The notes beneath the pieces were generated by a model, which did no database searches, was not told the DNA's origin, and saw only the letters and a program-made list of their open reading frames with translations. From contig JADYZV010000181.1 in assembly GCA_020852965.1 (NCBI GenBank), positions 1 through 64,000 on the forward strand: a DNA stretch of 64,000 bases, in the 5' to 3' direction. This document shows, in pieces, positions 11,883 through 33,895 of this stretch (the first letter of the stretch is position 1; every line of letters starts with the position of its first letter). Position numbers and translations under genes: made by a program. Source of the DNA: Pirellulaceae bacterium. Its GTDB lineage: Bacteria; Planctomycetota; Planctomycetia; Pirellulales; Pirellulaceae.

Positions 11883-12528
11883 ATTGGGGTTTCCGTCTTC
11901 CTAGAAAGACGAATACCGAAAGACCAACGAGGGCCAACGAAGAAGGTTCTGGTACGGCGGCAACACGAACATGATCCAGCATCGCATCGAAGCCACCTCC
12001 GCCCGATTGCGCGTCCGAAAAATCGGAAAAGCGAAGTGTTGATGTTGTGCCGGAAGCGGTAAAGTCGAATTGAAATGGAGAATAAACACTTGGGGAGTCG
12101 GTGGAATTCGGCTCACCTGTTGACGGTGTCGCATCCGAGACGAGTTGATTGAGAATTTGTGAGCCCCCGAATCCAGTTCCGTCGAACACGTCCACTTGTA
12201 ATCGCGCTACTTCATTGGGCTGATTTATCGAATACTTCCCGAAGTCAAATGAGAGGCGGTAACTCGTGTCCGCAATCGTTGCAAACGACTGGGAAATCGC
12301 GCCGTTGGAGGGGACGTTTCCGATGCTGAAGGCGAGCGCATTTGTTCCATCGGTCTCGCCTTGCGATGAGCTAACTGCAAGGTTGCCCGTCGCTGTCCAG
12401 TTGTCTGGCAAACCGCCGGTCGCATTTTCGAAGCTTCCATTCAGAATCAATTCGGCAGATGCTGTCTTCAGGGAAACGGAACTTTCAATGATGATCAGTG
12501 CGGCGAAGCAGCAAAGTAAGCGCGTCAT
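11830..12528 (-). CDS. PEP-CTERM sorting-domain protein
   Basis: A 232-residue exported protein. It has an N-terminal signal (MTRLLCCFAALIIIESSVSLKT), a beta-sandwich starting ELILNGSFENATGGLPDNW (carbohydrate-binding-like fold), and the sorting tag VPEPSSLALVGLSVFVFLGR followed by RK. PEP-CTERM tags are processed by an exosortase; none lies in this window. A further 18 or so residues follow the basic stop-transfer, longer than usual, because the frame reads into the opposite strand of the SGNH esterase gene before reaching TGA. The partner CPBP and FemAB genes at 21-23 kb belong to families often linked with exosortases. Confidence 0.85.
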   Translation of the reverse strand: MTRLLCCFAALIIIESSVSLKTASAELILNGSFENATGGLPDNWTATGNLAVSSSQGETDGTNALAFSIGNVPSNGAISQSFATIADTSYRLSFDFGKYSINQPNEVARLQVDVFDGTGFGGSQILNQLVSDATPSTGEPNSTDSPSVYSPFQFDFTASGTTSTLRFSDFSDAQSGGGGFDAMLDHVRVAAVPEPSSLALVGLSVFVFLGRRKPQFTSTLPSAPVQKPLLDA

Positions 12529-18585: not shown

Positions 18586-18664
18586 GCGCCATGCCTCAGG
18601 CTACACTCCCTAAACAGTTTAATCCTAATCCCTTCCCTGTAACGCCCAGGTCGCGAGTTTTTTG

Positions 18665-20896
18665 ATGCCTAAGCTAAATTCGCAAGTGGATAATCGATTC
18701 AGTCGACAGACGTTGCCCCTGTGGGGCCTGGTGTTGGTCGGTTGGATCGTCTCGTTGGGGTTGTTTTTCAGCCAGCCTTCTCTGTTGGGATTGACCGACG
18801 AACTGGGGCAGCCAATGGGGCGTTTGGTCGACTTAATGCAAGTACTTCTCGTGGACCAAGTGGCCGCTGGGATGGTGGCTCATGGTCGAATGGAGCCAGG
18901 ATTTGCCGATCGTTGGCCACTGCTGCTGGGGCTGTTCGGCTGGATGCTGACGGCGGGCTGGGTCGGACTACCACTGTTGCTGCGATCGAGTTTAACCGCG
19001 AGTATCAGCCGTTTGGAAAGTGGGGTGTTAGCGGTCTTGGCTGGCGCAGCGATACTCTCCACGGTAACTTTAGGAGTCGGATTGGCCGGTGAGCTAAGCA
19101 GTCGCTGGCCGCTGCTGCTCGCATTTGCTGCATTGGTCGTTGGAGCAGGCGGACTAACGATGGTTCAGCTTCGCCGCGGAGTCACTCTTTCGGTCGGAGA
19201 CGTTCGGATACGGAGAAGCAGCTCCGCAGACCTTAACCGCCCTACAAGCCAACTGGGAGTTTGGCTCGGGCGATTGCTGCCCGTGGCCACTATCTTGATC
19301 GCCACATTGACGCTGCTGGGTTGCCTGATGCCACCTTGGGAATTCGACGTGGTCGAGTATCACTTGCAGGCTCCCAAGGAATTCGTGCAAACGGGAGTGA
19401 TCGGCTTTGTCCCGCACAATATTTATGCGAACATGCCGCTGGGGGCCGAGCTGCATTCGTTGGCAGCCATGGTGCTCGTGGGTGGCAGCCAGGGCTGGTG
19501 GTGGGGGGGGCTGATTGGCAAGTCGATTACTGGGAGTTTTTCGCTGCTGGCAGCCGCTTTGCTGGGAGGCTTTGTTGCGCGAAAGTTCGGTGCGTGGAGC
19601 GGTTGGGTGGCGGCGGCTTTGCTGTTGGCGGCACCCGGCAGTGCCCACGTTTCGATGGCGGGACTGATCGACATGGTGTTGGCTGCCTACCTGCTGGCCG
19701 CCGCCGTGGTGACCACCTTGCTTTGGCCGCAATTGCGCTCGGGGACGGCGCGCTGGAGTGACGGACTATTGATAGGTTTGTTGGCCGGTGCTGCTGCGGC
19801 CTGCAAGTACACGGGGCTGTTGTTTGTGGTGCTGCCGATCGTTGTGGCCGTATTGTTGGCGTTGATCAAGTCGAGACGTAAGCCGTTTGCATTGAAGATA
19901 GTTGCCGGTGGCTTTGTTGGTTTGGCCCTTACGTGTTTACCGTGGTATGCCAAGAATTTATGGTGGACGGGCAATCCATTTTTTCCACTGGCGACAAGCC
20001 TGTTCGGTTCGAGCGGGTTGAGCGTTGAACAGCTTGCACAGTGGCAACATGCCCATCACGTGCCGAGTGTAGCAGGAGGAAGCCGGTATGGGCTAATTGC
20101 GCTGTGGGAGGCGGGGTTGCAAATCTTGCTGCGCAGCAACTTCCTGCCACCTACGCTGGTATTCTTGTCGATTTGTGGTGTGGCCGTAGTGTGGAGCAAG
20201 CCGGCCGGCATGACGGCCAAATGGTATCGTGGCTGGCTATATTTATTGATCTGGGTCGGTCTCGTATGGTGGCTCGGGACGCACCGCATCGATCGCTTTT
20301 GGTTGCCCGCTCTACCGCTCGCATGCGGCTTGGCTGCGGTGGGAGCCAGCTGGATCGCCCGTCGCCTGTCGCTCAGCCTGGCCACTATCATGGTATTGCT
20401 GAGTTTGTTTTATGGCGGTTTTATCATCGCCTCGGGGGCGATCGGCGACAATCGTTTCTTTGTTAGCCTGTCTGCCCTGCGCGGCGACTCGGGGAGCGAC
20501 GATTCACCGGGAAGGCTGGCTTCGGTCATCGGCTGGGCCAATGAGACACTCGACGGACCTGACCAGCGATTGTTGCTCATCGGTGAGGCCAAGGCCTATG
20601 ACTTTCGCATGCCCATCATCTATTCGACTTGTTTTGACCGCAGCCCTGCCGAGGCATGGTTACTGAACCAAGAGCCCCAGCAACAGCGCGAGAGCTTGGC
20701 GCAGGCTGGGGTGACGCACGTACTGATCAACTGGAATGAACTGGCCCGCTACCGTAGCCCTGGCAACTATGGCTTTAGCGCTTGGCCACAGCGGGAAGAT
20801 ATTGAACGGCTCGTGTCAGATCGAGTCTTGAGACCACTCGATTCGCCCTTTGCTGCACAGAATGTAGAGGTGTTCGAAGTGGTTTCGCCCAACTAA
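18665..20896 (+). CDS. GT-C type membrane glycosyltransferase (ArnT/PMT-like)
   Basis: A 743-residue polytopic protein with at least ten hydrophobic segments. After the third to fifth helices a periplasmic loop PPWEFDVVEYHLQAPKEF carries the acidic D-x-x-E-Y-H pattern of GT-C enzymes, which use polyprenyl-phosphate sugars as donors. The last 150 residues form a soluble periplasmic domain. It would add a sugar to a glycan or protein on the outer face of the inner membrane. A TTG lies immediately before the ATG; the ATG at 18665 is used. It begins a plus-strand run of surface-glycan genes. Confidence 0.75.
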   Translation: MPKLNSQVDNRFSRQTLPLWGLVLVGWIVSLGLFFSQPSLLGLTDELGQPMGRLVDLMQVLLVDQVAAGMVAHGRMEPGFADRWPLLLGLFGWMLTAGWVGLPLLLRSSLTASISRLESGVLAVLAGAAILSTVTLGVGLAGELSSRWPLLLAFAALVVGAGGLTMVQLRRGVTLSVGDVRIRRSSSADLNRPTSQLGVWLGRLLPVATILIATLTLLGCLMPPWEFDVVEYHLQAPKEFVQTGVIGFVPHNIYANMPLGAELHSLAAMVLVGGSQGWWWGGLIGKSITGSFSLLAAALLGGFVARKFGAWSGWVAAALLLAAPGSAHVSMAGLIDMVLAAYLLAAAVVTTLLWPQLRSGTARWSDGLLIGLLAGAAAACKYTGLLFVVLPIVVAVLLALIKSRRKPFALKIVAGGFVGLALTCLPWYAKNLWWTGNPFFPLATSLFGSSGLSVEQLAQWQHAHHVPSVAGGSRYGLIALWEAGLQILLRSNFLPPTLVFLSICGVAVVWSKPAGMTAKWYRGWLYLLIWVGLVWWLGTHRIDRFWLPALPLACGLAAVGASWIARRLSLSLATIMVLLSLFYGGFIIASGAIGDNRFFVSLSALRGDSGSDDSPGRLASVIGWANETLDGPDQRLLLIGEAKAYDFRMPIIYSTCFDRSPAEAWLLNQEPQQQRESLAQAGVTHVLINWNELARYRSPGNYGFSAWPQREDIERLVSDRVLRPLDSPFAAQNVEVFEVVSPN

Positions 20897-21004: not shown

Positions 21005-21670
21005 GTGACTCAAGCCTACGTGATTCCGTTTGTGCTCTATCTGTTTGGAACGAGTTTTCTGGCGAGGTTCGGCGATGCGTGGTATCCGTTGCTGTACGGT
21101 GGGCTGGTACTGGGGATGTTGGTCTATTTGGTATGGCTGCTCGTCGGCAAGCCGATTTTGCGACCCCACTGGCGCGTGTTGCCTGCGGTTGCTGTGGGCC
21201 TGATGGGGATCGGATTGTGGATTGGGCTAGCCAGCTTGCATGTGGAAGAGCAGTTCGCACAGTGGTTGCCAGCTTGGTTGCGGCCTGAGCCAAGAGTGGC
21301 TTACAATCCGCTGGAGCATTTGTCGGGAGCGAGCGCTTGGGCGTTCATTTCGATGCGGTTGTTGGGAATAGCCGTGGTTGTGCCGCTGGCGGAAGAGTTG
21401 TTTTGGCGTGGTTTTCTGCTGCGTTGGCTGATCGACCCCGAGTGGGAACGCGTGCCACTGGGAGAGTTTACGCTTTCCTCCTGCCTGACGGTCACATTGA
21501 TGTTTACGCTGGCCCACCCGGAATGGCTGGCGGCGGCAGTCTACTGTCTGCTAATCAACGGCTTGCTCTACTGGAAGAAGGATCTGTGGTTGTGTGTGGT
21601 GGCTCATGGGGTCAGCAACTTGGTATTGGCCTTGTATGTGTTGATCACTGGGGCGTGGTGGCTGTGGTAG
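21005..21670 (+). CDS. CPBP-family intramembrane protease (CAAX protease-related)
   Basis: A 221-residue protein with six or so membrane helices. Motifs: EE at 130-131 followed by xxxR135 (EELFWRGF), His171 in FTLAHPEW, and His201 in AHGVSN. This is the complete ABI/CPBP set. Members in this size class include the 'CAAX prenyl protease-related' proteins that accompany exosortase systems; the PEP-CTERM protein at 11.8 kb makes this plausible. The start is a GTG. It lies 108 bases after the GT-C gene, with a palindrome between. Confidence 0.85.
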   Translation: MTQAYVIPFVLYLFGTSFLARFGDAWYPLLYGGLVLGMLVYLVWLLVGKPILRPHWRVLPAVAVGLMGIGLWIGLASLHVEEQFAQWLPAWLRPEPRVAYNPLEHLSGASAWAFISMRLLGIAVVVPLAEELFWRGFLLRWLIDPEWERVPLGEFTLSSCLTVTLMFTLAHPEWLAAAVYCLLINGLLYWKKDLWLCVVAHGVSNLVLALYVLITGAWWLW

Positions 21671-21799: not shown

Positions 21800-22912
21800 A
21801 TGGACCCGCATCTTGTTTGTCGTCATGTGATTACTTCGCCGCATATGTTGATGTCAGCCCGTAAATATCGGTTTGAACTGGTCGATTCGGACCATGAACA
21901 GTGGGATGCGTATGTGCAACAGCATCCCAGCGGTTCGATATTTCATACTCGTGCGATGATACGCGCTTTTGCCTCGGTTGGAAGCGTTAGCCCCCGAGCC
22001 ATGGCGGCCATCGATGAGTCGGGGAGCATTGTGGCGCTGCTGGTTAGTTGTCATGTGAAGACGCTGCGCGATTTCTCTTCGCTCTCGTCGCGGGCAGTTC
22101 ACTATGCGGAGCCGTTGTGCGATGCGACGCCCAAGGGAGTGGCCGCCTTGCAGAATTTGCTCACACAACATGACGCGCAGATGCGCGACCAAGCGCTACT
22201 TTGCGAAGTGCGCTCCATTTGCGAACCGGGCCACGAGCGCGACGCGCTGCTGCATTGTGGCTACGATCATCGCGACTATATCAATTATATCGTCGAGCTC
22301 GATGCATCGACTGACGAACTTTTCAGTCGCATCAATAAAAACATGCGACAAAAAATTCGCAGTACTTTGCGCAAGGATATCGAACTACGTGACGACAACA
22401 GCGTGGCTGGTGTTGGGCGACTCTATCGTTTGCTTCAATCTAGTTATGGGCGTGCTCGCGTACCCCTATTGGGACGCGAAATGTTCGAGGCCACGCTCGA
22501 GCACTTGCCGCCTGGGAGCCTACGCATTCGCACGGCATTTGACGGCGATAAACCGATCGCAGCCATCGTGTCACTGCTTTATGGTGGCCGAGTCTTTTCG
22601 TGGTACGGCGGCACGCTGCGTTTACCTGCCCTATCTCCATTTGCTTGTTTAGTTTGGGATGATATTCGATGGGGATGCGAAAACGGTTTTCACGTGTACG
22701 ACTTCGGTGGCGCCGGTTGGCCTCACGAAGATTATGGCCCGAGAAAATTCAAAGCCAGTTTTGGTAGCAAGGAAGTGCGGTATGGACGCTATCTACTGAC
22801 CTACTCCAAGCTCCGTTTGCGATTGGCAGCATTTGCCTACAGTGTCTCACGTCGACTGGGCGCTTGGTCAGGCTCCTCGATTCAGGAGGCCAACCATGAC
22901 ACGAAAGAGTGA
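21800..22912 (+). CDS. FemAB/GNAT-like peptidyl or acyl transferase
   Basis: About 370 residues. The segment INKNMRQKIRSTLRKDIELR and the C-terminal SWYGGTLR...LVWDDIRWGCENGFHVYDFGGAGWPHEDYGPRKFKASFG are typical of FemAB-like double GNAT proteins (HxxYDFGG and FKxxFG). These enzymes move aminoacyl or other acyl groups onto cell-wall or surface glycans; a PEP-CTERM-associated subgroup exists. Starts at 21845 and 21851 are also possible and may be better, since the protein fold begins at RKYRFELVD. It overlaps the next gene by 17 bases, so the two are co-translated. Confidence 0.78.
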   Translation: MDPHLVCRHVITSPHMLMSARKYRFELVDSDHEQWDAYVQQHPSGSIFHTRAMIRAFASVGSVSPRAMAAIDESGSIVALLVSCHVKTLRDFSSLSSRAVHYAEPLCDATPKGVAALQNLLTQHDAQMRDQALLCEVRSICEPGHERDALLHCGYDHRDYINYIVELDASTDELFSRINKNMRQKIRSTLRKDIELRDDNSVAGVGRLYRLLQSSYGRARVPLLGREMFEATLEHLPPGSLRIRTAFDGDKPIAAIVSLLYGGRVFSWYGGTLRLPALSPFACLVWDDIRWGCENGFHVYDFGGAGWPHEDYGPRKFKASFGSKEVRYGRYLLTYSKLRLRLAAFAYSVSRRLGAWSGSSIQEANHDTKE

Positions 22913-24083
22913 TTCCACTTTGGTCGAACGTGCGCCGTTGGATACCGTGGGTTCGTCGTCTAGCAGGCCGGCGAAAGTTGTATTTGAGCGTGAGCGACTA
23001 CGCCGTCACCGTGGAAGCCATCGCCGCGCATGGTGCTTTCGTCTGGCCGCAGTCGGCAGCGCCTTGCTCGGTGCCTTGCTGGTGGCTGAGCTCGCGTTGC
23101 GGTTGTTGGTTGTGCAGGAAGGTAAACGACTGGCCACCTACGATGCCGAACTGGGCTGGCGTGGCCGCCCTAACGGAACTGGAGTCTACGCCCGGTCTGA
23201 GGACAAAATCTGGACGCCCTTTCGCTACAACTCGCTGGGCTTTCGCGATAACGATGTGCTTCCCAAGGTAAGCGATGGCAAGCGCTTACTGATCTTAGGG
23301 GATTCGTTTGTCGAGAGTCTAGAAATTGATTTTCCGCAAACGTTTGGAGCACAAATTGAGAAGTCAATTCAGAATCGCGCCCCACACTGGGATGTGGCCC
23401 TCATCGGCTCGCAAGGCTATTCCACCTCGCAAGAGCTGATCGCTTTTCGCAAGTATCGTTCGCTGGTCGAACCCGACGTGGTGGTGCTCTGTTTCTATTG
23501 TGGCAATGATTTCCAGGACAACCTAAGGCAGCGTTTCGCCTACTTGGATGCGGACCAACATTTGGTACTCCCCGCTAGCCAAGCACCATCGTGGATGCAC
23601 CAGGCGCGGCGATTGCAACGCTGGGTGTACGAAACCTCGCACGTCGTCTACCTCCTGAAGAATACCATCGAAGGCCTTACTAACGTCCAGCTAGCTCCCG
23701 AGTCGAAAACTACCGTAGAACAAAGCGAAGAGTATCAGCTAGACATTACCCAGAAATTAATCGTCCAGTTGCAGCGTGAAGTGATCGAATCGGGTGCGAG
23801 ATTGGGAATCGCGTGCATTCCAGCCCGCGATGACCTGTTGGCGGGAGACACATCGAAAGTCGATTGGTTGATCGACTTGTGTACGGTCCATCAGATTCCT
23901 TACGTCGACCTATCGGCCCAACTTGCACTCGAACACTTTTTCAAAGTCGACTTTCACTTGAACGCGGCTGGCCATCAGGTCGTCGCACAGACGCTCGAGG
24001 CATTTGTGTTTGCCCCGCAGCTTGCGGGGCACGAATGGGGCGACATACCAGCCACCTCGAATCAAGCCGCATGGAGTCAATAG
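22896..24083 (+). CDS. Membrane-anchored SGNH hydrolase or O-acyltransferase-like protein
   Basis: A 395-residue protein. A basic N-terminal region is followed by a membrane segment near 49-73 (RLAAVGSALLGALLVAELAL), then a periplasmic SGNH domain. GDSFVES puts the nucleophile at Ser137, GSQGYSTSQE gives the Gly block, CFYCGNDFQDN the Asn block, and DFHLNAAGH the catalytic Asp and His. Similar domains deacetylate or transfer acetyl groups on exopolysaccharides. GGAGG at 22885-22889 lies 6 bases before the ATG at 22896, which fixes the start inside the end of the FemAB-like gene. Confidence 0.82.
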   Translation: MTRKSDSTLVERAPLDTVGSSSSRPAKVVFERERLRRHRGSHRRAWCFRLAAVGSALLGALLVAELALRLLVVQEGKRLATYDAELGWRGRPNGTGVYARSEDKIWTPFRYNSLGFRDNDVLPKVSDGKRLLILGDSFVESLEIDFPQTFGAQIEKSIQNRAPHWDVALIGSQGYSTSQELIAFRKYRSLVEPDVVVLCFYCGNDFQDNLRQRFAYLDADQHLVLPASQAPSWMHQARRLQRWVYETSHVVYLLKNTIEGLTNVQLAPESKTTVEQSEEYQLDITQKLIVQLQREVIESGARLGIACIPARDDLLAGDTSKVDWLIDLCTVHQIPYVDLSAQLALEHFFKVDFHLNAAGHQVVAQTLEAFVFAPQLAGHEWGDIPATSNQAAWSQ

Positions 24084-24087
24084 ATCG

Positions 24088-24912
24088 ATGCGCGTGGCCA
24101 TGTTGACCAATTTGACAGCGCGTGCAAGTTTGCCTGTTTTGCAGAGATTGGCTACGAGCACTGAGATCGAATTGGTACACGTCTACTTCTTCGACACAGT
24201 CACCTCCAGCCGCAAGCGACCACTGTCCATATTGCACCAATTCGGTTGGAAAAAAATTGTGAGCAAGGTCGGACAATCCATGCTGGGCAAGCTTCGGACC
24301 ATGTTTGGCCGGCGGTTTGGGGGTACCTGGCTGGCGCCACGCTCCACCTACGAAGGAGCCGTATTCGGGCAATTGCCATGGTCGATTACTGCGGATATCA
24401 ACAGTACCGCCACGCGCGAGCATCTGCGCCAGTTCGACGCCGATGTGCTGCTGGTGTGCGTTTGCAAGAACATTCTGAAGTCCGACGTATTGCAGCTCGC
24501 ACGTCCGAAATGCATCAATATACATCCATCGTTACTTCCCAATTATCGTGGCCCTACTCCTACGTTCTGGATGCTCTACCATGGCGAGAGCCAAACGGGT
24601 TATACCATTCACTGCATGACCGAAAAGATAGACCAGGGAGAGACTTTGGCACAGCGGCCGCTACCACTGGACCGTCAGAAATCGGAGCCTATGATTGAAT
24701 TGCAAGTTTTCACGGCGGCGGCCTCCGTCCTAGAAGAAACGTTGCTGAAATTCAATAGGCGAGGTTTCGCGAGCATAGCGACCGAGGCACCCCAAGGAGG
24801 CGTCGCCGTCCGTTCGGATACGGCGCATGTGGCGACCGGTAGCTACCATACCTACCCCACCCCGGCCGATCGCCGCGAATTGAAGAAACGCTTGATGAAA
24901 CGTCTGCGCTGA
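24088..24912 (+). CDS. Formyltransferase-family protein
   Basis: A 274-residue protein of the methionyl-tRNA/GART formyltransferase fold. The catalytic triad is Asn144-x-His146 in INIHPSLLPNYRGPTP and Asp182 in TEKIDQGETL, with the same 36-residue His-Asp spacing as Fmt. The C-terminal OB domain of Fmt is missing. Such short forms usually formylate amino sugars or act on small substrates with 10-formyl-tetrahydrofolate. It starts 4 bases after the SGNH stop, in one transcript with it and FemAB. N-formylation of a surface glycan is the favoured reading. Confidence 0.85.
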   Translation: MRVAMLTNLTARASLPVLQRLATSTEIELVHVYFFDTVTSSRKRPLSILHQFGWKKIVSKVGQSMLGKLRTMFGRRFGGTWLAPRSTYEGAVFGQLPWSITADINSTATREHLRQFDADVLLVCVCKNILKSDVLQLARPKCINIHPSLLPNYRGPTPTFWMLYHGESQTGYTIHCMTEKIDQGETLAQRPLPLDRQKSEPMIELQVFTAAASVLEETLLKFNRRGFASIATEAPQGGVAVRSDTAHVATGSYHTYPTPADRRELKKRLMKRLR

Positions 24913-25003: not shown

Positions 25004-25050
25004 GTTTTCCCGCCGCATCGCCGCTTCAGGCGGCGATGCGGCGGGAAAAC
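25004..25050. terminator. Strong 20-base hairpin between the formyltransferase and PKS genes
   Basis: Arms 25004-25023 (GTTTTCCCGCCGCATCGCCG) and 25031-25050 are exact reverse complements around a 7-base loop. The arm ends in T-rich/A-rich sequence on both sides, so it could stop transcription in both directions. It may equally be a dispersed palindromic repeat. Confidence 0.55.
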
Positions 25051-25110: not shown

Positions 25111-25166
25111 GAGGGGAGCGGGGAGCGGGGAGCGGGGAGCGGGGAGCGGGGAGTTGGGAGTTGGGA
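25111..25166. repeat. Heptanucleotide tandem repeat GGGGAGC
   Basis: Five to six units of GGGGAGC run into the variant TTGGGAG about 135 bases before the PKS start. Such a tract can change length by slippage and could alter promoter spacing. Confidence 0.75.
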
Positions 25167-25301: not shown

Positions 25302-28300
25302 ATGACTTTAGACACTTCTTCAACCGGCTCCAGTGTGGTGATCGCTGCGACGTTTACTGCCGAGCCGATTGCGCCCCCTCTTTTGTCGTGGTGGCGCTGG
25401 TTAGAATCATCGGCCAGCTTGCATTTTGCTCCCTATGATCAAGTTTTCCAACAACTGCTCGATCCCCACAGTCTACTGTCGGCCAATCGAGCAGGAACGA
25501 ATATCCTGCTGGTTCGCATCGAGGATTGGTGTCAAACGGAGCGATTCGCAGAGGCGCCTCGGCGCGGCGAAGAGTTCCTCAAAGCCGTAGAGCATTTCAC
25601 TACCGTTTCCGGTGTTTCTGCTCTCTCAAGTGGCCAGTTGCTGGTCTGCTTTTGTCCGAGCAGTACAGCGCTGGATTCGAGCACTCGAGCGTCGTTGGCG
25701 TCGATCGAATCAGAGCTTATCGCCGGCCTGACCAAGCTACCTCACGTCATGCCGATCGCTTCCTACGAGGCGTCCCAACTCTATCCGGTCAGCGAGGTCG
25801 AGGACAGCGTAGCCAAACGAGCCGGACAGATCCCATACACGCAGGCCTACTACACCGCCCTCGCCAGCCTGTTGGCTCGTCGCCTGTTTGCTCTCCGGCG
25901 AAGACCCGCCAAAGTTATCGCACTCGATTGCGATCAAACGCTATGGGATGGTGTATGTGGCGAGGTTGGCTGGCGCGGTGTGGCCGTCTCCCAAGAACGG
26001 CGAGCCCTGCAGCGCTCATTGCTGCAACTGCGCGACATGGGTTATCTTCTCTGTTTATGCAGCAAGAATAGTGCCGAAGATGCGTGGCAAGTATTCGAGC
26101 AACATCCCGATATGTTGTTGCGACGTGAGCATTTTACGGCAGTGCGATTGAACTGGTCCACCAAGTCGCAGAGCCTGCGTGAGTTGGCCGAACAATTGAA
26201 TTTGGGACTCGATAGCTTCGTCTTCATCGATGACAATCCGCTCGAATGCGCCGAAGTCCGCGCCCACCTCCCACAGGTGTTGACACTGCAGCTTCCCGAG
26301 TCGAGCGGCTCAGGTGATGCGGCTGGAGTAGGTGGCATCGCGAATTTCTTGCAACATGTGTGGGCTCTAGACCGCTCGAACGTGACGGACGAAGATCGCC
26401 AGCGCGCCGAAAGGTACACGCAAGATGTGCACCGCAGCGAAGCGCGCGAGCAGGTCGTATCGCTCGAACAGTTCTTGTCCGAACTGAATCTACAAGTCAA
26501 TTTCCTGCCATTGAGCGAAGAGCGGATCGAGCGCGGAGCCCAGTTGACCGAGCGCACCAACCAGTTCAACTTCACGACCCGACGTCGCACGGCCGCGGAA
26601 CTGCGACAATGGTGCGTCGGGTCTCAGGCTGGCGCATTTATGGTCGATGCCTCAGATAGATTTGGCCATTATGGATTGGTCGGTCTTGTGCTGTATGAGC
26701 TTGAGGACGCAACCCTGCGCGTCGATAGTCTGATGCTCAGTTGCCGAGCGCTGGGACGACGCATCGAGTTGCACGTATTGAGTGAACTATGTCGCGTGGC
26801 CCAGCAGCACGACTGTCTCCACATTGAACTGCCATTGATCGAAACAGACAAAAACCAACCCGCTCAAGACTTCGCCGAGCGAACGCTGGGAGCTTTTCGC
26901 GACAGCTCGCAATTGCGTGCGACAACTGAAGGCACCAGGCTCTACTGCATGACTGCCGAACAATTGGCAACGGCCGTACAGGAGTCGCGACAACTCTCGG
27001 TAGACGAGTATCCGCCGACAATCGGTAGCGAGCATGCGAACAACCGTGGCAGCAAGAATGAAAGTACCGACCTCGTCAACATGACACAGGAGTGCTGGCC
27101 TTGGGAGTTGTGCCAACGCATAGCTACCGATTGGAGCAGCGTCGACAAGGTATTGCGAAAAATCGATGACGAAGCTCGTGCCAGACCAGAGCTCGATGAG
27201 GCCTACTCACCACCGCAGACTGAGATCGAGCGACAAGTGGTCGAACTGTGCCAGTCGGTGTTGAACGTCGTGCCAGTGGGAATTCACGATGGTTTGAAAT
27301 CGCTGGGAGCCAGCTCGCTGCATATCGTGCAAATCTATAGTCGGCTCGAACAAACCTTTCATGCGGGCTTGAGCATTACCGATCTTTTCGCATTGTCGAC
27401 GGTAGCCGCGATCATCGAACTCATTGAGAAAACGAAATCGGCTCCGGCAGCCAGTGGTCGAGATTCGCAAACGAAATCGCAAGCCAACAAACAGCCGCAT
27501 TCACAATCCGTAGGCTCCCCAGACAATGGCATTGCGATTATCGGCATGGCTGGGCGGTTTCCTGGAGCGGCCAATGTGCGTGAATTATGGTCGAATATTA
27601 CAGCCGGTGTTTGCAGCATCGTCGATATCCCCGACGTGGATTTGAACCTTCCCCAGGACAGTCCACTGCGCAACAATGCAAATTTAGTGCGCAAGTCGGC
27701 GTCCGTGGAAGATGCAGACAAGTTCGATGCTAAGTTCTTTGGTATTTTTCCCAAGGAAGCCACGCTCTTGGATCCGCAGCATCGCCTGCTATTGGAAAAC
27801 TGCTGGCATGCGATCGAAGACGCAGGATACAATGTCGACACGATCGATGTTCCGGTCGGTGTGTTTGCTGGTTGCTACATGGACACCTACATGCTGGCCA
27901 GTCTTGCGCTGAGTCCCAAGTGGCTGGAGAGCTTGGCCAATGCCTTTCATGGAGGCGATCTGCTGACTGAGCTGGGCAATGATAAGGATTACTTGGCCAC
28001 GCGCGTCTCCTTTTTACTCAATCTGCGCGGACCAGCCATCACGGTCCAGACCGCTTGCTCTACTTCGCTGGTGGCGATCGCGCAAGCTTGCCAGAGCTTA
28101 GTCAGTGGACAATGCGATATGGCGTTGGCTGGTGGAGCGACCTTGAAGCTGCCGCAAAATCGAGGCTACTTGTATACCGAAGGTGGCATGGTTTCGCCCG
28201 ATGGAGTTTGCCGAGCCTTTGATGCTCGGGCGCGAGGCACGGTGTTTGGCGAAGGCTGTGGAGTGGTGCTGCTCAAGCGAGTCGACGATGCGCTGGCCGA

Positions 28301-30455
28301 TGGGGATGACATTTACGCGGTCATCAAAGGTTGGGGCCTGAACAACGATGGACGCACCAAATTGAGCTACACAGCACCCAGCGTCGAAGGGCAAGCGGGG
28401 GCCATCGCGATGGCCCACCGCATGGCTGGTATCGAGGCTGATAGCATTACGCTCATCGAGGCCCACGGCACAGGCACTTCACTAGGTGATCCGATCGAGA
28501 TTGAATCGCTATCGCGAGTCTTTCGTCAAACAACTGACAAGCGGCAGTACTGCGCCATCGGCTCACTCAAAACGAACGTCGGCCACTTGGACGTTGCCGC
28601 CGGAGTTGCGGGGCTGATTAAAGCAAGCCTTGCACTGCGCAATCGTGTGCTGCCGCCGAGCCTCAATTATGAACAGCCCAATCCAAATATCGACTTTGAG
28701 TCGAGTCCGTTTTTTGTCAACACGCAACTGCGCGATTGGGAAGCACCTTTTCCTCGATGCGCCGGATTGAGTTCGTTTGGTGTTGGCGGAACCAATGCGC
28801 ACGTAGTGATCGAGGAAGCTCCCCCTCTGGCCGTGTCACCAGCCGCGACGACTCCTCAGACCGCTCCGCAGTTGATATTGCTCTCAGCTCGCTCCGCCGC
28901 CGCGCTCGAAGCGCAGCGACTGGCGCTTGTGCAGCACTTGCAGGACCATCCCCAGCTCGATATGGCAGACGTGGCATTCACTCTGCAAACCGGCCGCAAG
29001 ACATTCAACTACAGTTTGGCCGCAGTCGTCAATGACTTAACACAAGCCATAGAGGTCTTGCGTGAAAAGCCGCCACAACAGGTATTCGAGCAGCGACAGG
29101 TACGACGCGGGAAATCAGTCGTGTTCATGTTTCCAGGACAGGGCTCGCAGCATCTCGACATGGCGCGCGATCTGTACGATAGCGATTCGATCTTTCGTGA
29201 AGCATTCGATCGATGCAGTGAGTTGTTATTGGCTCACCTGGGCTGCGACTTGCGCGAGATGGTGTTTCTAGCAGCGACGGACTCGACCGAATCAGCCACT
29301 GAACGACTCAATCAAACTTCGGTGGCGCAAGCAGCGTTATTTACTGTCAGCTACGCCTTAGCTAAGCGTTTGCGGGCCGACGGCGTGGTGCCCAGCCGCA
29401 TGATCGGCCATAGTGTGGGCGAGTTTGTGGCGGCTTGCCTGGCTGGCGTTTTTTCACTCGAGGAGGCGCTGCGTTTAATAGCTTTCCGTGCGATGCGTAT
29501 GCAGCAAATGCCAACCGGCAGCATGCTGGCCGTGCGCATGACCGAAGCCGAAACGCTGGAAGAACTGCCGAACGAATTGTCTCTGGCGGCCATCAATGGC
29601 CCGCAATTGTGCGTGGTCTCAGGGCCGACCTCCGCCGTGGAGCAGTGGCAGCAGAAATTGGAGGCTGCAGAAGTCATCTCTCGAAGACTGCATACCTCGC
29701 ACGCCTTCCACTCGGCGATGATGGATCCCGTAGTCGAGCCGTTTGCCGAACAACTGCGTGGGGTAGCATTGCAAACTCCCCAGATTCCGATCGTTTCCAC
29801 GGTCACTGGCCAGCCGCTGACCGATGCCCAGGCGGTCGACCCCAACTACTGGGCGCGGCATTTGCGTGAGACAGTCCGTTTTACTGACGCGTTAGCGGCC
29901 ATTACTACCGATTCGGACGCCGTTCTGTTAGAAGTTGGTCCAGGGCAGACGCTGAGTACTCTGGCGCGACAACACCCAGGTCGCAACGGTGAACAATCAG
30001 TACTTGCCACATTACCGCACGCCAAGCAATCGAGCTCGGCCCGCGAGCATCTCTTGTTGGCACTCGGTCGCTTGTGGCAGGCAGGAGTCGATGTAGACTG
30101 GAAGAGTCGGTTTGGGGATCAACACCACCGCCGTCGGCTGCACCTGCCCGTGTACCCCTTTGAGCGTTTGCGGTATTGGCTGGAACCAGAGCGGAAGAGT
30201 GAAGTCGGCGGCGATGAAATCGATAACGAGTTTGCAGTATCCGGGCCGGTCCCAGCATCGTTCGACGCTCCGGCCGAATCCTTGCCAGAGCGTACGCCTC
30301 CAGCGGTGGGCGAAAGCGCGGGGTGCGTGGCCGAGGGGAAAATCGGCGGAGAACCACCAAGCTACCTTGAAGCGGAGTGGGATGAGTTGACTCGGCGAGT
30401 GATTCAGCAACAACTGCAGCTAATGCAGCAACAATTGCAAGCTTGGCGTTCCTAG
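25302..30455 (+). CDS. FkbH-ACP-KS-AT polyketide synthase
   Basis: A 1717-residue modular enzyme. Residues 1-560 form an FkbH unit: HAD motif ALDCDQTLWDG with Asp209 and Asp211, and a C-terminal half with LTERTNQFNFTTRRRTAAEL; FkbH proteins dephosphorylate 1,3-bisphosphoglycerate and load glyceryl onto a carrier. Residues about 630-710 are a carrier domain with Ser672 in LGASSL. The KS starts near 742, has Cys919 in TACSTS, and retains EAHGTGT and NVGHLD. The AT (about 1270-1590) has Ser1371 in GHSVGE and HAFH at 1467-1470, pointing to malonyl-CoA. No KR, DH, ER or MT is present. A Gln-rich amphipathic tail (QQQLQLMQQQLQAW) looks like a docking helix. Start 25302 begins just before IAATFTAEPI, typical of FkbH. 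It is followed 26 bases later by its partner gene. Confidence 0.92.
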   Translation: MTLDTSSTGSSVVIAATFTAEPIAPPLLSWWRWLESSASLHFAPYDQVFQQLLDPHSLLSANRAGTNILLVRIEDWCQTERFAEAPRRGEEFLKAVEHFTTVSGVSALSSGQLLVCFCPSSTALDSSTRASLASIESELIAGLTKLPHVMPIASYEASQLYPVSEVEDSVAKRAGQIPYTQAYYTALASLLARRLFALRRRPAKVIALDCDQTLWDGVCGEVGWRGVAVSQERRALQRSLLQLRDMGYLLCLCSKNSAEDAWQVFEQHPDMLLRREHFTAVRLNWSTKSQSLRELAEQLNLGLDSFVFIDDNPLECAEVRAHLPQVLTLQLPESSGSGDAAGVGGIANFLQHVWALDRSNVTDEDRQRAERYTQDVHRSEAREQVVSLEQFLSELNLQVNFLPLSEERIERGAQLTERTNQFNFTTRRRTAAELRQWCVGSQAGAFMVDASDRFGHYGLVGLVLYELEDATLRVDSLMLSCRALGRRIELHVLSELCRVAQQHDCLHIELPLIETDKNQPAQDFAERTLGAFRDSSQLRATTEGTRLYCMTAEQLATAVQESRQLSVDEYPPTIGSEHANNRGSKNESTDLVNMTQECWPWELCQRIATDWSSVDKVLRKIDDEARARPELDEAYSPPQTEIERQVVELCQSVLNVVPVGIHDGLKSLGASSLHIVQIYSRLEQTFHAGLSITDLFALSTVAAIIELIEKTKSAPAASGRDSQTKSQANKQPHSQSVGSPDNGIAIIGMAGRFPGAANVRELWSNITAGVCSIVDIPDVDLNLPQDSPLRNNANLVRKSASVEDADKFDAKFFGIFPKEATLLDPQHRLLLENCWHAIEDAGYNVDTIDVPVGVFAGCYMDTYMLASLALSPKWLESLANAFHGGDLLTELGNDKDYLATRVSFLLNLRGPAITVQTACSTSLVAIAQACQSLVSGQCDMALAGGATLKLPQNRGYLYTEGGMVSPDGVCRAFDARARGTVFGEGCGVVLLKRVDDALADGDDIYAVIKGWGLNNDGRTKLSYTAPSVEGQAGAIAMAHRMAGIEADSITLIEAHGTGTSLGDPIEIESLSRVFRQTTDKRQYCAIGSLKTNVGHLDVAAGVAGLIKASLALRNRVLPPSLNYEQPNPNIDFESSPFFVNTQLRDWEAPFPRCAGLSSFGVGGTNAHVVIEEAPPLAVSPAATTPQTAPQLILLSARSAAALEAQRLALVQHLQDHPQLDMADVAFTLQTGRKTFNYSLAAVVNDLTQAIEVLREKPPQQVFEQRQVRRGKSVVFMFPGQGSQHLDMARDLYDSDSIFREAFDRCSELLLAHLGCDLREMVFLAATDSTESATERLNQTSVAQAALFTVSYALAKRLRADGVVPSRMIGHSVGEFVAACLAGVFSLEEALRLIAFRAMRMQQMPTGSMLAVRMTEAETLEELPNELSLAAINGPQLCVVSGPTSAVEQWQQKLEAAEVISRRLHTSHAFHSAMMDPVVEPFAEQLRGVALQTPQIPIVSTVTGQPLTDAQAVDPNYWARHLRETVRFTDALAAITTDSDAVLLEVGPGQTLSTLARQHPGRNGEQSVLATLPHAKQSSSAREHLLLALGRLWQAGVDVDWKSRFGDQHHRRRLHLPVYPFERLRYWLEPERKSEVGGDEIDNEFAVSGPVPASFDAPAESLPERTPPAVGESAGCVAEGKIGGEPPSYLEAEWDELTRRVIQQQLQLMQQQLQAWRS

Positions 30456-30481
30456 AGTTTAGCCACACGAGTTACAGTGAC

Positions 30482-33400
30482 ATGACGCACGAATTGAACC
30501 CAGCCGCCGAAGAGGCGCTTGCCAAAATTCTCCACGATGCTTCAGGTTTCGATCTGCGTGAGCTCGATCGTCGTGCGTCGTTTGCGGAGCTTGGGTTTGA
30601 TTCGCTATTCTTGATCCAGTTCACGCAGAAGATCAAAAATAAGTTAAGAGTGAAAGTAACTTTTCGGCAATTGATCGAAGAGCTCCCCACGCTCGATGCG
30701 TTGATTCAATTTGTTGGGAGCCACACGGCCGCTTCTGCACTTGGTGCGAGCACTGCTGCGACGACGACGGTTGTCGTTGCCGCCAGCGCAGATCAGGCCA
30801 CGCCGGCGGCTGAGCCGACGCCAACGCCTGTAGCCCTTATGCCGACAGTCGCCGCTAGCGCACGCGTCCCGCCTAGTGAGCCGGTGCCAACCAACTCAGA
30901 CGTTGTGCCCCAACCCCTCATGTCGCAGCAACACTCGCTGCAGCCAGGCGCGCAGCCGCAAACTGCTGCTCCGCTGTTTGCCTCTGCGACCTCGGAACCG
31001 CCACGAGTGAAGAACGCTCGTGACCTGTCGGCTTTGGAACAGATCATCACGCAGCAGAACCAGTTGATGTCCATGCAGCTTCAATTGCTCAGTGGCAGAG
31101 GCATGGCGGCGGGCGCTACCCCAGCGATGACACCCTTGACACCGACGACGTCTGCACCGACAACGTCAACATCGACGACGTCAACACCGACGACTGGCGT
31201 TGAATCGCAAGCAACATCGGCATCGGCAGCAAGTGGAGCCCATTCGGCTATGGCCCCAGTTGCTCCAATTGCTGCGAGCCCAACACTCAAACCAAGATTC
31301 GAGCGGTTTGGGCCGTACAAACCGGTTCTCAAGTCCCCCACGGGTGGACTGACTGATCAGCAGCAGCAAAGCCTCGGTCGCTTTATCGAGCGGTTTATCA
31401 CCAGGACTCAACGGTCGCGCGCGCACGCTCAAAAGCATCGTCCTCATTTCGCCGATCCACGCGGCGTGGCAGGCTATCGCCGCGTATGGAAATCGATCGT
31501 TTACCAAATCAGCGTCGAGCGATCGGGCGGTTCCAAGCTGTGGGACATTGATGGCAACGAGTACATCGACATCGCGATGGGCTTCGGCCTGAATCTGTTC
31601 GGCCACTCTCCCGACTTTGTAACAACCGCGCTGCACGAGCAATTGGAGCGTGGTGTCGAAGTTGGTCCGCAGTCACCATTGGCAGGAGAAGTGGCCGAGT
31701 TATTATGTGATTTCTCGCGCAAGGATCGCGTGACGTTTTGCAACACCGGCTCGGAAGCGGTGATGGCGGCCATGCGTTTGGCGCGCACGGTAACGGGCAA
31801 ATCGAAGATAGTGTATTTCAACAAGGACTATCACGGCAATTTTGAAGAGGTATTGTTGCGATCGAACCATATGGGCAATCAGCGGCGGACGCAGCCCGCT
31901 GCTCCTGGCGTACCGCAATCCTTCGCCGACAATTCGATCGTGCTCGACTATGGTTCTCCCGAAGCTTTGCAGGCGATTCGCGACAATGCCGATGAGATCG
32001 CAGCGGTGTTGGTCGAGCCGGTGCAGAGCGCCGATCCGTTCAACAAGCCACGCGAATTCTTGCACGAAATTCGTCAAATCACGCACGAGCATGACATTGC
32101 TTTGATTATGGACGAGGTTATCACCGGCTTTCGCGCCGCACAGGGAGGCGCGCAGGAGTGGTTCGGTGTTTGGGGAGATATGTCGACCTATGGCAAAGTG
32201 CTCGGGGGAGGCTTACCCATCGGAGCGCTCGCCGGTTCGGCACAATTCATGGACGCGCTCGACGGGGGCGATTGGAAATACGAAGATGATTCCGAGCCGA
32301 CGGCCGACATGACGTTCTTTGCCGGAACTTTTGTGCGTCATCCCTTGGCGATCACTGCCGCGCATCAAGTGCTGATGAAGGTCAAGGAAGAAGGCCCCGA
32401 GCTGCAGGAAAATCTCTCGCGCAAGACGAGCTACCTAGTCGATGAGCTCAATCGATTTTTTACCGAAGAGTCATTCCCATTCCGGGTAGCTCAGTTCACC
32501 TCGCTCTTTCGCTTTATGTTTCCACCCGATCTCGAGTATGCCGATCTACTCTATTTCCACCTGCTCGAACGAGGCATTTTCACGCGTGGCTGGGGGGACA
32601 ACTGCTTTCTATCGACGGCTCATTCCGACGCGGACGTCCAGCGGATTATCGAAGCGGTCAGGTCGAGCTGCTTGGAGATCCGTAGCGGAGGCTTCATGCC
32701 CCAAGCCGACGCGGTGCCTGCCAGCTCGCATTCGCCGAGCTCAAACACCCCTGCCCACAACACTCTGAAGGCGGAATCGGCAGCTCAGCCAACGATGCAA
32801 CCGTCGCAACAGTCGCAACCGTCGTCGGGCCATGCGATTCAGCCTGTTTGTGATAGCAGTCAAGTCAGCGCAGCGCAGACAAACCTGCCCACTACGCATC
32901 CGCGCTCGGACGCATCGCATCCACACGGACTAGAGCACGTTTCGGCGCGAAGTGCAAACTTGGATCATGCCGACCGCATATCGACCGTGGAGGAGATTCA
33001 AGAAGGAGGGGATTTGCCTCCGCTGTTTTGCATGCCCGCCGCCGATGGTCTGTCGCTGGTCTACCACGATTTGGCCGAAGAGCTGGGGGAAGAGCAACCC
33101 ATCTACGGGCTGACCTCGCCGGGCGTGTATGGCGAAGAGATTCCACTGACGATCGAAGAGATGGCGCGACGTTTTATCGAGGACATTCGGGAACAGTTTC
33201 CGCACGGTCCCTATTTGTTATTGGGTTACTGTTCGGGAGGGACCATCGCCTTTGAAGCGGCCCAGCAATTGGTAAGCGCCGGCGAGCGGGTGGCATTGGT
33301 TGCTGGTATAGAAACCTACGACTGGGGCACGGCTCAGTCGTCGCGTCCCACGCCACTGATCAAAGCCTACTACCATCTGCAACGGCTCGAATTCCACATA

Positions 33401-33895
33401 CGCAATTTTATGTTGCTCAAGATGAGCGATCAGTGGGCTTTTTTGAAATCCAAGCTCAATCGCGTGCGGGCGCGCACGAAGAACTGGCGCGGCATGTTGG
33501 CGAGTTTGTTTTCGAAACAGAAGGCGATCTCCGCTGCGGGGGCCGTCAACATGCACGAACTATGGCGGCTGCACGACGCTCAAGCCGACCGCTATCGCCC
33601 GAAACCCTATCCCGGCAAGCTACTGCTGATTCGCCCGAAGAAGGACTATCGCAGCTACATAGGCAAAGAGGATCTGGTAGCCACCGCTGGAGTGCAAATA
33701 GTTCGCGTTCCCGCCTTTCCCGCCGGCTTGATGACCCCTCCCTACGTGTCGCAGGTTGCCAAGCTGATAAGAGAAGCGATTCGCGAAGGGCTTGCCAGCC
33801 CCACTAGCGGGCAGCGGGCCGAGCCAGCGCGACGCATGGAAACCAGCCCCGATCGTCATCTAAGTAGCCAGCAAATTCCCGCCGCATTGGTGTGA
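30482..33895 (+). CDS. ACP-aminotransferase-thioesterase polyketide synthase module
   Basis: An 1137-residue protein. Residues 5-85 are an ACP with Ser41 in LGFDSL. A long Pro/Ala/Thr-rich linker follows, ending in a Gln-rich helix (LEQIITQQNQLMSMQLQLL). Residues about 310-735 are a class III, PLP-dependent aminotransferase like glutamate-1-semialdehyde mutase and the AMT of mycosubtilin: TGSEAVMAA, DEVITGF and Lys572 in YGKVLGGGLP. A second low-complexity linker leads to a C-terminal alpha/beta-hydrolase thioesterase (about 840-1105). Its nucleophile elbow reads GYCSGG, with Cys917 where Ser is usual, and no His is seen in the expected place near 1080. The preferred ATG at 30482 lies 26 bases after the upstream stop. 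Confidence 0.9.
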   Translation: MTHELNPAAEEALAKILHDASGFDLRELDRRASFAELGFDSLFLIQFTQKIKNKLRVKVTFRQLIEELPTLDALIQFVGSHTAASALGASTAATTTVVVAASADQATPAAEPTPTPVALMPTVAASARVPPSEPVPTNSDVVPQPLMSQQHSLQPGAQPQTAAPLFASATSEPPRVKNARDLSALEQIITQQNQLMSMQLQLLSGRGMAAGATPAMTPLTPTTSAPTTSTSTTSTPTTGVESQATSASAASGAHSAMAPVAPIAASPTLKPRFERFGPYKPVLKSPTGGLTDQQQQSLGRFIERFITRTQRSRAHAQKHRPHFADPRGVAGYRRVWKSIVYQISVERSGGSKLWDIDGNEYIDIAMGFGLNLFGHSPDFVTTALHEQLERGVEVGPQSPLAGEVAELLCDFSRKDRVTFCNTGSEAVMAAMRLARTVTGKSKIVYFNKDYHGNFEEVLLRSNHMGNQRRTQPAAPGVPQSFADNSIVLDYGSPEALQAIRDNADEIAAVLVEPVQSADPFNKPREFLHEIRQITHEHDIALIMDEVITGFRAAQGGAQEWFGVWGDMSTYGKVLGGGLPIGALAGSAQFMDALDGGDWKYEDDSEPTADMTFFAGTFVRHPLAITAAHQVLMKVKEEGPELQENLSRKTSYLVDELNRFFTEESFPFRVAQFTSLFRFMFPPDLEYADLLYFHLLERGIFTRGWGDNCFLSTAHSDADVQRIIEAVRSSCLEIRSGGFMPQADAVPASSHSPSSNTPAHNTLKAESAAQPTMQPSQQSQPSSGHAIQPVCDSSQVSAAQTNLPTTHPRSDASHPHGLEHVSARSANLDHADRISTVEEIQEGGDLPPLFCMPAADGLSLVYHDLAEELGEEQPIYGLTSPGVYGEEIPLTIEEMARRFIEDIREQFPHGPYLLLGYCSGGTIAFEAAQQLVSAGERVALVAGIETYDWGTAQSSRPTPLIKAYYHLQRLEFHIRNFMLLKMSDQWAFLKSKLNRVRARTKNWRGMLASLFSKQKAISAAGAVNMHELWRLHDAQADRYRPKPYPGKLLLIRPKKDYRSYIGKEDLVATAGVQIVRVPAFPAGLMTPPYVSQVAKLIREAIREGLASPTSGQRAEPARRMETSPDRHLSSQQIPAALV

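Follow-up and report, generated by a model that had tools for sequence, protein, structure and literature searches.

A two-protein FkbH-aminotransferase assembly line in Pirellulaceae, possibly an accessory of an exopolysaccharide system

What does a very short polyketide assembly line make, and where does its product go? The question is raised by two neighboring forward-strand genes at positions 25302 to 33895 of contig JADYZV010000181.1 (assembly GCA_020852965.1, a Pirellulaceae bacterium), which together encode a polyketide synthase (PKS) headed by an FkbH domain and ending in an aminotransferase and a thioesterase-like domain. The 64,000-nucleotide stretch that was analyzed, positions 1 to 64,000 of this contig, is called the window throughout. 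A first-pass annotation described the two genes as a minimal set inferred to join a glyceryl starter to one malonyl unit and to aminate the product.

In this report, we computed the domains and active-site residues of the two proteins, the subfamily of the aminotransferase, the changes in the terminal domain, the phyletic and physical linkage to exopolysaccharide (EPS) genes, and the conflict between aminotransferase and thioesterase trees. Our preferred reading, to which we give roughly four chances in ten, is that the pair may be an accessory assembly line of a Pirellulaceae EPS system, providing 3-amino-4,5-dihydroxypentanoyl units for a surface polysaccharide by way of a terminal cysteine domain that would transfer them to an acceptor. 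The more interesting facts are the state of this terminal domain, which has a Cys and no His, and the linkage to polysaccharide genes.

The gene pair and its predicted product

Profile searches confirmed the domain order first noted for both proteins. Protein 1 (25302-30455) consists of FkbH, acyl carrier protein (ACP), ketosynthase (KS) and acyltransferase (AT) domains, and protein 2 (30482-33895) of ACP, aminotransferase (AMT) and thioesterase (TE)-like domains. The open reading frame (ORF) of protein 1 extends to 30455 from 25215 (TTG, the first possible start) or 25302 (ATG), giving 1746 or 1717 amino acids, and that of protein 2 to 33895 from 30443 (TTG, the first possible start) or 30482 (ATG), giving 1150 or 1137. 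The two overlap by 13 bases if the first possible starts are used and are spaced by 26 bases if the ATG starts are used; residues in both proteins are counted from the latter. Matches in protein 1 were to TIGR01686 FkbH (297 bits), PP-binding (36), ketoacyl-synt (241), its C-terminal part (139) and Acyl_transf_1 (181), and in protein 2 to PP-binding (39), Aminotran_3 (191) and Thioesterase (79). Neither PKS protein has a profile match to a ketoreductase, dehydratase, enoylreductase or methyltransferase.

Every residue numbered by the first-pass annotation was found at its position: Asp209 and Asp211 of the HAD-type FkbH domain (25908-26888, TIGR01686), Cys919 of the KS (27528-28673, PF00109 and PF02801; with His1055 and His1095), Ser1371 in GHSVGE and HAFH at 1467 of the AT (29121-30089, PF00698), Ser41 of ACP2 (30515-30715, PF00550) and Lys572 of the pyridoxal phosphate (PLP)-dependent, mycosubtilin-type AMT (31505-32602, PF00202). 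The other two domains are ACP1 (27234-27425, PF00550; Ser672) and the TE-like alpha/beta hydrolase domain (32966-33802, PF00975; Cys917, Glu944, Asp1055 and Pro1080). The AT thus carries both GHSxG and HAFH, the latter being, by the motif rule, what we take to be the malonyl type. The E-values rule out chance resemblance, as do relatives such as G143 (record L021; genomes of our survey carry G numbers and locus records L numbers), which has the same gene pair, its domains being 43-74% identical to those of the window. The source genome, G000, has two phosphopantetheinyl-transferase matches over cut-off. A 15-base tandem repeat (31139-31194) encodes the Thr/Ser-rich linker that leads from ACP2 to the AMT.

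Membership of the FkbH family, as first noted, holds: the domain scores 297.4 bits for TIGR01686 against a curated cut-off of 146.65, and its DxD motif is intact. This motif, LCSKN and LSCRALGR are invariant in all 10 aligned FkbH domains, window included, and the conserved Cys motifs (LCSKN and LSCRALGR) presumably matter for a functional Cys. BF1531 (3slr, E 1.5e-25) was the sole solved chain matched. The only FkbH copy of the source genome lies within PKS protein 1, which fits a loading domain. Among 13 genomes searched, FkbH was present in four (G000, G143, G178 and G186), each time within the PKS, and absent from nine, namely seven whose KS-AT lacks a loading domain, G177, which has a ligase-like head, and G008, where the contig is cut. 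Supply of FkbH in trans to the variants without a loading domain was rejected, as none was found in the genomes concerned (G005, G020, G145, G193, G195, G196 and G197). Since FkbH is single in the PKS of the source genome and absent from these seven, the start unit follows the architecture. In the window, where FkbH heads the PKS, glyceryl probably serves as a starter.

The closest solved relative of the AMT is mycosubtilin synthase (6kfm, E 6.8e-134, about 450 bits and 449 bits over any chance level; 6kfu is similar), and the next family, the glutamate-1-semialdehyde aminomutases, follows about 249 bits lower (201 bits, E 2e-58). Together with Lys572 and the fused ACP2, these scores bear out the mycosubtilin-type assignment. 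The AMT modules of MycA yield a beta-amino acyl chain, and an ACP-fused AMT of this type would fit a carrier-bound beta-keto substrate. In a tree of 98 AMT rows, built by a quick search and read with a support line of 95, the window AMT falls inside a clade of 21 planctomycete rows (SH-aLRT support 100), one for each genome with the core of the system. For the AMT, the ratio of nonsynonymous to synonymous divergence (dN/dS) is saturated and gave no estimate.

The chemistry first proposed, glyceryl plus malonyl, no reduction and then amination, is the best reading of these domains; we infer all its steps, as well as the acceptor and the polysaccharide as carrier of the product. FkbH would take glycerate from 1,3-bisphosphoglycerate and place it as glyceryl on ACP1, the AT would load one malonyl unit on ACP2 of protein 2, and the KS would join the two. 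Transamination of the unreduced 3-oxo chain by the AMT would then give 3-amino-4,5-dihydroxypentanoyl-ACP2, that is, the carrier-bound form of 3-amino-2,3-dideoxypentonic acid, a unit resembling a sugar acid. The terminal Cys/Pro domain would take the chain as a thioester and hand it on without hydrolysis, most likely to an amino group freed by a linked polysaccharide deacetylase, possibly with help from a FemAB-like protein.

Relatives of the pair and their polysaccharide neighbors

We surveyed 241 genomes of the family for AMT matches at E <= 1e-110. They occur in 40 genomes: 21, that of the window among them, make up the close clade at 66-78% identity, and 19 stand at 42-49%. A scan of 84,980 species genomes by peptide patterns, which may miss members, placed seven close-clade members (L021-L027), all planctomycete, among the best 80 of 572 loci; several of the loci are the same records as genomes of the survey. 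An isolated novel minimal pathway is thereby ruled out, the same core being present in 21 of the 241 genomes, window included. The first-pass annotation was right that the gene pair is real, and the homologous pairs it proposed to search for exist; the set is not isolated, being one of at least four variants in a family that occurs in planctomycetes. The full minimal architecture, FkbH-ACP-KS-AT plus ACP-AMT-TE, was confirmed only for the window and G143. Six genomes (G178, G176, G186, G187, G104 and G001) have the same first protein followed by ACP-AMT-C-A-PCP-TE, with a non-ribosomal peptide synthetase (NRPS) module of condensation (C), adenylation (A) and peptidyl carrier protein (PCP) domains; G101, with a contig cut before the start, and G002, with one cut at both ends, belong to this NRPS-type group. 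KS-AT without FkbH is followed by ACP-AMT-TE in G020, G196, G197, G195, G193, G005 and G145. G008 has the same end as this group, on a cut contig, with no FkbH in a genome that is 84% complete. G177 combines an acyl-ligase-like head with AMT-TE, and G144 and G011 have FkbH on contigs that break off before the terminus.

The nine-letter A-domain code, read at nine positions with a tenth letter added by script, is DILQLG(M/L)(I/V)W in six of the seven NRPS-type relatives, G176 differing; we take this code to specify glycine. The AMT tree places the window as sister to four NRPS-type rows (SH-aLRT 94, below the support line), and G143 joins G144 (97) and then the NRPS-type G101 (100). The TE tree separates a clade of the 11 AMT-TE domains (100/100) from a clade of the seven NRPS-type domains (100/99), and it pairs the window with G143 (100/99); long branches were flagged in the outgroup part and do not touch the split between the two types. 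Because the AMT and TE trees disagree, the ends of these proteins have probably been exchanged between lineages.

The phyletic link to polysaccharide genes involves above all the product of positions 3736-4839 (forward strand), which we identified as a putative polysaccharide deacetylase from sequence comparisons and which has a relative in all 21 core genomes. A profile built from nine family members matches the solved deacetylase 3rxz at E 5.6e-11. Polysacc_deac_1 is matched at E <= 0.1 by seven of the nine, the match of the window protein (E 0.0016) being below the Pfam cut-off; the AlphaFold model was unusable, with a predicted local distance difference test score (pLDDT) of 35, and was not used. 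Single-copy at E <= 1e-40, the deacetylase occurs in 39 of the 241 genomes: in all 21 with the PKS core, G104 being counted from a fragment at the end of a contig, and in 18 of the 220 others. Within genus g1, it is present in 6/6 genomes with the core and in 2/9 without. Deacetylase and PKS share a contig within 25 kb in 11 of the 21 core genomes, and nine of these have them within about 1.2 kb (G001, G005, G176, G177, G178, G186, G187, G193 and G195); in the closed genomes G020, G196 and G197, they lie 0.5 to 1.1 Mb apart. The core was never found without the deacetylase and the deacetylase often without the core, which suggests an accessory role for the PKS in this polysaccharide system. 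A FemAB-like gene is present in 23 of the 241 genomes and in 14 of the 21 with the core.

Physical linkage was assessed with 13 EPS-type queries (E <= 1e-15, at least 35% identity), which found matches near 10 of 20 relatives' loci and in none of 20 control windows. The controls were 20-kb stretches picked arbitrarily in eight of these genomes, 10 of them from G020, G196 and G197, and one has a 33% match, under the 35% line; the relatives' stretches measure 5.8 to 63 kb and are often longer than the controls. The window, from which queries were derived, was left out of the count; its glycosyltransferase was hidden by an overlap filter. Eight of the 13 queries come from G005, which is still counted, as window-derived queries match it too. 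With the same queries, one of seven loci of the 42-49% AMT group matched. In G005, G186, G193, G195 and G145, the PKS is found within or next to clusters that contain genes for Wzx, Wzy, a tyrosine autokinase, a glycosyltransferase or an amidotransferase, and in G020, Wzy_C and autokinase genes not reached by the queries stand within about 3-9 kb of it. About half of the relatives' loci thus adjoin EPS genes, a setting that the first-pass annotation did not mention. Passages of a Sphingomonas EPS study report an exosortase-associated amidotransferase among the insertions that alter colony morphology (PMC11340318), and the amidotransferases of the relatives' clusters fit this insertion.

Several observations on relatives stand apart. 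Records L167, L169 and L171 (also L106 and L107) hold a more distant AMT group of the same family, with the order A-ACP-KS-AT-ACP-AMT; in the first three, a C-A protein comes after the AMT protein and carries the code described above, probably for glycine, and no EPS-type match lies nearby. The AMT is a separate ORF in L107. The KS-AT gene of G145 appears as two overlapping ORFs (L163:13090-16033), and L025 has a similar split, into FkbH-ACP-KS and AT; each may be an assembly error or a real split.

The terminal domain and the fate of the chain

Does the chain leave by hydrolysis? The first-pass annotation named the terminal domain a thioesterase, and the fold is present, but the Ser-Asp-His triad of an ordinary one is absent: Cys917 (in GYCSGG), Glu944 and Pro1080 stand where Ser, Asp and His are expected, and Asp1055 follows the next strand. 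The predicted model (mean pLDDT 79.9) has NRPS and PKS thioesterases as its best PDB matches. In fragment numbering, Cys917 lies at the turn after strand 83-88 and Glu944 directly behind strand 109-115; Asp1055 follows strand 219-224 by three residues (pLDDT < 50 at 229-235), and Pro1080 follows 243-248 by four. Passages of the SulM paper (PMC11298585) describe where the nucleophile, the Asp of positions I and II and the His stand in the TE fold, and in the model the four residues appear to fall at these places.

An alignment of 20 TE rows, that is, 18 close relatives (window included, three of them near-identical and of one genus), L168 and L028, shows Cys at the nucleophile and Pro in the canonical His column in 20/20; L028, outside the close relatives, has a His one residue past that column. 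G002, G011 and G144, whose contigs are cut before the TE, are left out. Outside this group, the fetched loci contain 24 TE domains, which have Ser (20) or Cys (4) and keep His in 22, the two rows without a clear His being cut (L040) or doubtfully aligned (L089). As the Cys-type outgroup domains L063, L071 and L091 retain His, it is Cys together with His loss that marks this TE group. A phmmer alignment to AB3403 also pairs Pro with His, in a segment that is not significant (E 3.5e4) and was not used. Asp1055 is kept in the 11 AMT-TE rows and missing in the seven NRPS-type rows. Between the window and G143, dN is 0.34 and dS 2.4, near saturation, a ratio of about 0.14, so that the domain is under constraint rather than decaying. 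From these residues, simple hydrolysis appears doubtful; an acyl-Cys intermediate that would be passed to an acceptor or ring-closed is likelier.

Several points weigh against an EPS accessory with a transferring Cys domain. The formyltransferase-fold gene upstream is separated from the PKS pair by a 389-base gap with a strong inverted repeat, which parts the PKS from the upstream genes, and the window deacetylase lies 20 kb from the pair. The Fisher p of 7e-20 for co-occurrence of core and deacetylase is not corrected for kinship. Ten of the 20 relatives have no EPS-type match, namely five on contigs of less than 20 kb, G020, G196 and G197 (one genus), G101 and G143, the last of which shares the window's architecture. 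The source-genome EPS cluster most like that of G005 sits on another contig, C46 (the window is on C181), most matches to XrtA-family models (FemAB, deacetylase and glycosyltransferase) are below the NCBIfam cut-offs, and an exosortase cluster proper was rejected, as no exosortase lies near the PKS and the three matches in the source genome are on C155 and C117. Another part of the fold, for example the conserved lid motif FHxxN, could supply a His that restores the triad, and sequence cannot establish that FkbH loads glyceryl.

The first rival reading is a small diffusible product: the terminal domain would hydrolyze the chain, 3-amino-4,5-dihydroxypentanoic acid or its gamma-lactone would be secreted, and the EPS neighbors would be incidental. 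A two-gene unit with its own upstream gap, and G143, G020, G196 and G197 without EPS-type genes by the strict test, would suit such a product, and thioesterases with a Cys are known, with SulM, ObiF1 and AB3403 named in passages of PMC11298585. It is nevertheless unlikely, given the loss of His in the 18 close relatives aligned and a deacetylase that accompanies every core genome and adjoins the PKS in nine; moreover, no transporter or resistance protein was recognized by Pfam in the scanned window proteins, which were a subset of the ORFs.

The terminal domain might instead close a ring, either a beta-lactam through the 3-amine (4-(1,2-dihydroxyethyl)azetidin-2-one) or a gamma-lactone through the 4-hydroxyl. 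The predicted substrate is a beta-amino thioester, and SulM and ObiF1, which form a beta-lactam and a beta-lactone, use a Cys and an Asp after strand beta7, according to passages of PMC11298585; the window has Cys917 and, three residues past the matching strand of the model, Asp1055, with a model that is unsure just after it. Yet the same passages have SulM and ObiF1 retaining the His after beta8, where the window has Pro1080, and mention an Asp at that place in some proofreading TEs as well. The Gln-Cys-Asn motif of SulM is Tyr-Cys-Ser in the window, and the NRPS-module relatives, whose chain end is probably glycyl, share the state with Cys and no His. We consider ring closure quite unlikely.

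Less probable still is a dead terminal domain, with the chain taken from ACP2 by the FemAB-like protein or an amidotransferase. The canonical His is lost, and in G193 and G178 FemAB-like genes directly adjoin or run into the PKS genes, the window copy lying 2.4 kb upstream of the PKS; against this, the Cys, the acidic residues and the overall sequence are kept under constraint. A precursor of a capsule lipid anchor or lipopeptide has precedent in the PKS-like RkpA of rhizobial capsule clusters, proposed to make a lipid anchor, and the G177 variant starts with an acyl-ligase-like domain, but a line that starts with FkbH, extends once and lacks reductive domains points to a short polar unit and not to a lipid, which makes this reading highly improbable.

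Neighboring genes and comparison with known systems

On the forward strand, the window begins with genes for a UDP-sugar dehydrogenase (1122-2546) and a GT4-type glycosyltransferase (2407-3732; XrtA-like matches, below cut-off), the deacetylase gene coming next. Further along lie genes for a membrane protein (18662-20896; weak PMT_2 match, below cut-off), a CAAX-protease-related protein (21005-21670; TIGR03008 pepcterm_CAAX, 111.7 against a cut-off of 81.05), the FemAB-like N-acyltransferase, by profile searches a possible amide-forming transferase (21800-22912), an SGNH/AlgX-like protein (22833-24083; start uncertain, both matches below cut-off) and the formyltransferase-fold protein (24004-24912; start uncertain), which has no match among the annotated ORFs of the relatives' loci. 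The inverted repeat between the formyltransferase gene and the PKS (25004-25050, 21-base arms) has one copy in the window, and the heptamer GGGGAGC is repeated 5.9 times, with no mismatch, directly upstream of the PKS (25113-25153). A GFO/IDH/MocA oxidoreductase gene follows the PKS pair directly on the opposite strand.

Elsewhere, 11830-12528 encodes a PEP-CTERM protein with choice-of-anchor C similarity, the exosortase matches of the source genome being on other contigs, and a 2103-amino-acid ORF (55963-62274) has no Pfam match at E <= 0.001. Rfam and tRNA searches gave no match. The EPS set of the source genome was considered as a direct neighbor of the contig start and rejected: the best candidate, on C46, is an EPS cluster without a PKS at 8-28 kb of a 164-kb contig. 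This stretch (L118, G000:C46:8001-28000) holds autokinase, Wzx-like, glycosyltransferase and amidotransferase genes, the last 69% identical to one near the G005 PKS.

If the EPS reading is true, polyketide chemistry supplies building blocks for surface polysaccharides. A bolder version holds that a sugar-like beta-amino acid is joined covalently to the EPS by a His-free Cys transferase and that Pirellulaceae swap start (FkbH, ligase, none) and end (TE, probably-glycine NRPS-TE) cassettes to vary the polymer; it is rather doubtful and would, if true, amount to assembly-line diversification of a glycan. The family would provide a two-protein system in which to study the function of a TE-like domain without the catalytic His, and it cautions genome miners against taking such loci for antibiotic clusters straight away. 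Passages of a 2025 review on planctomycete secondary metabolites (PMC12078418) name one type III PKS cluster as the sole predicted cluster to have been studied in a targeted way to date. Our literature search, which left most subscription journals outside, found no paper pairing FkbH with exosortase or with O-antigen, and none joining FkbH, glyceryl, aminotransferase and polyketide.

How does the locus compare with known systems? With the XrtA/PEP-CTERM EPS clusters, it shares the CAAX-related protein over cut-off, FemAB-like and deacetylase-like proteins and XrtA-like glycosyltransferases, with amidotransferases in relatives, but the window has no nearby exosortase, and a PKS is not known to be a part of such clusters. 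The likeness to RkpA presumably lies in a PKS- or fatty acid synthase-like protein encoded with capsule genes; RkpA has been proposed to make a lipid and is not known to contain FkbH or AMT domains. Glyceryl-loading FkbH domains resemble that of the window in the TIGR01686 score over cut-off, the DxD and the conserved Cys motifs; the window domain heads a PKS, and hydroxymalonate-forming dehydrogenases were not recognized in the pair. Passages of PMC7489565 and PMC8949500 describe FkbH domains that make glyceryl-ACP for tetronates and methoxymalonate, and FkbH in the vioprolide and cystomanamide lines. The AMT modules of MycA (mycosubtilin/iturin type) share an ACP-AMT after a KS, the window AMT being closest to 6kfm, 6kfr and 6kfu. 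The window line differs from them in starting with FkbH rather than an acyl ligase, in having AT and KS in one protein, and in passing directly from the AMT to a TE-like domain, with no peptide module in the window version. The window pair adds a variant to the known PKS-AMT lines, in a setting that is new for them.

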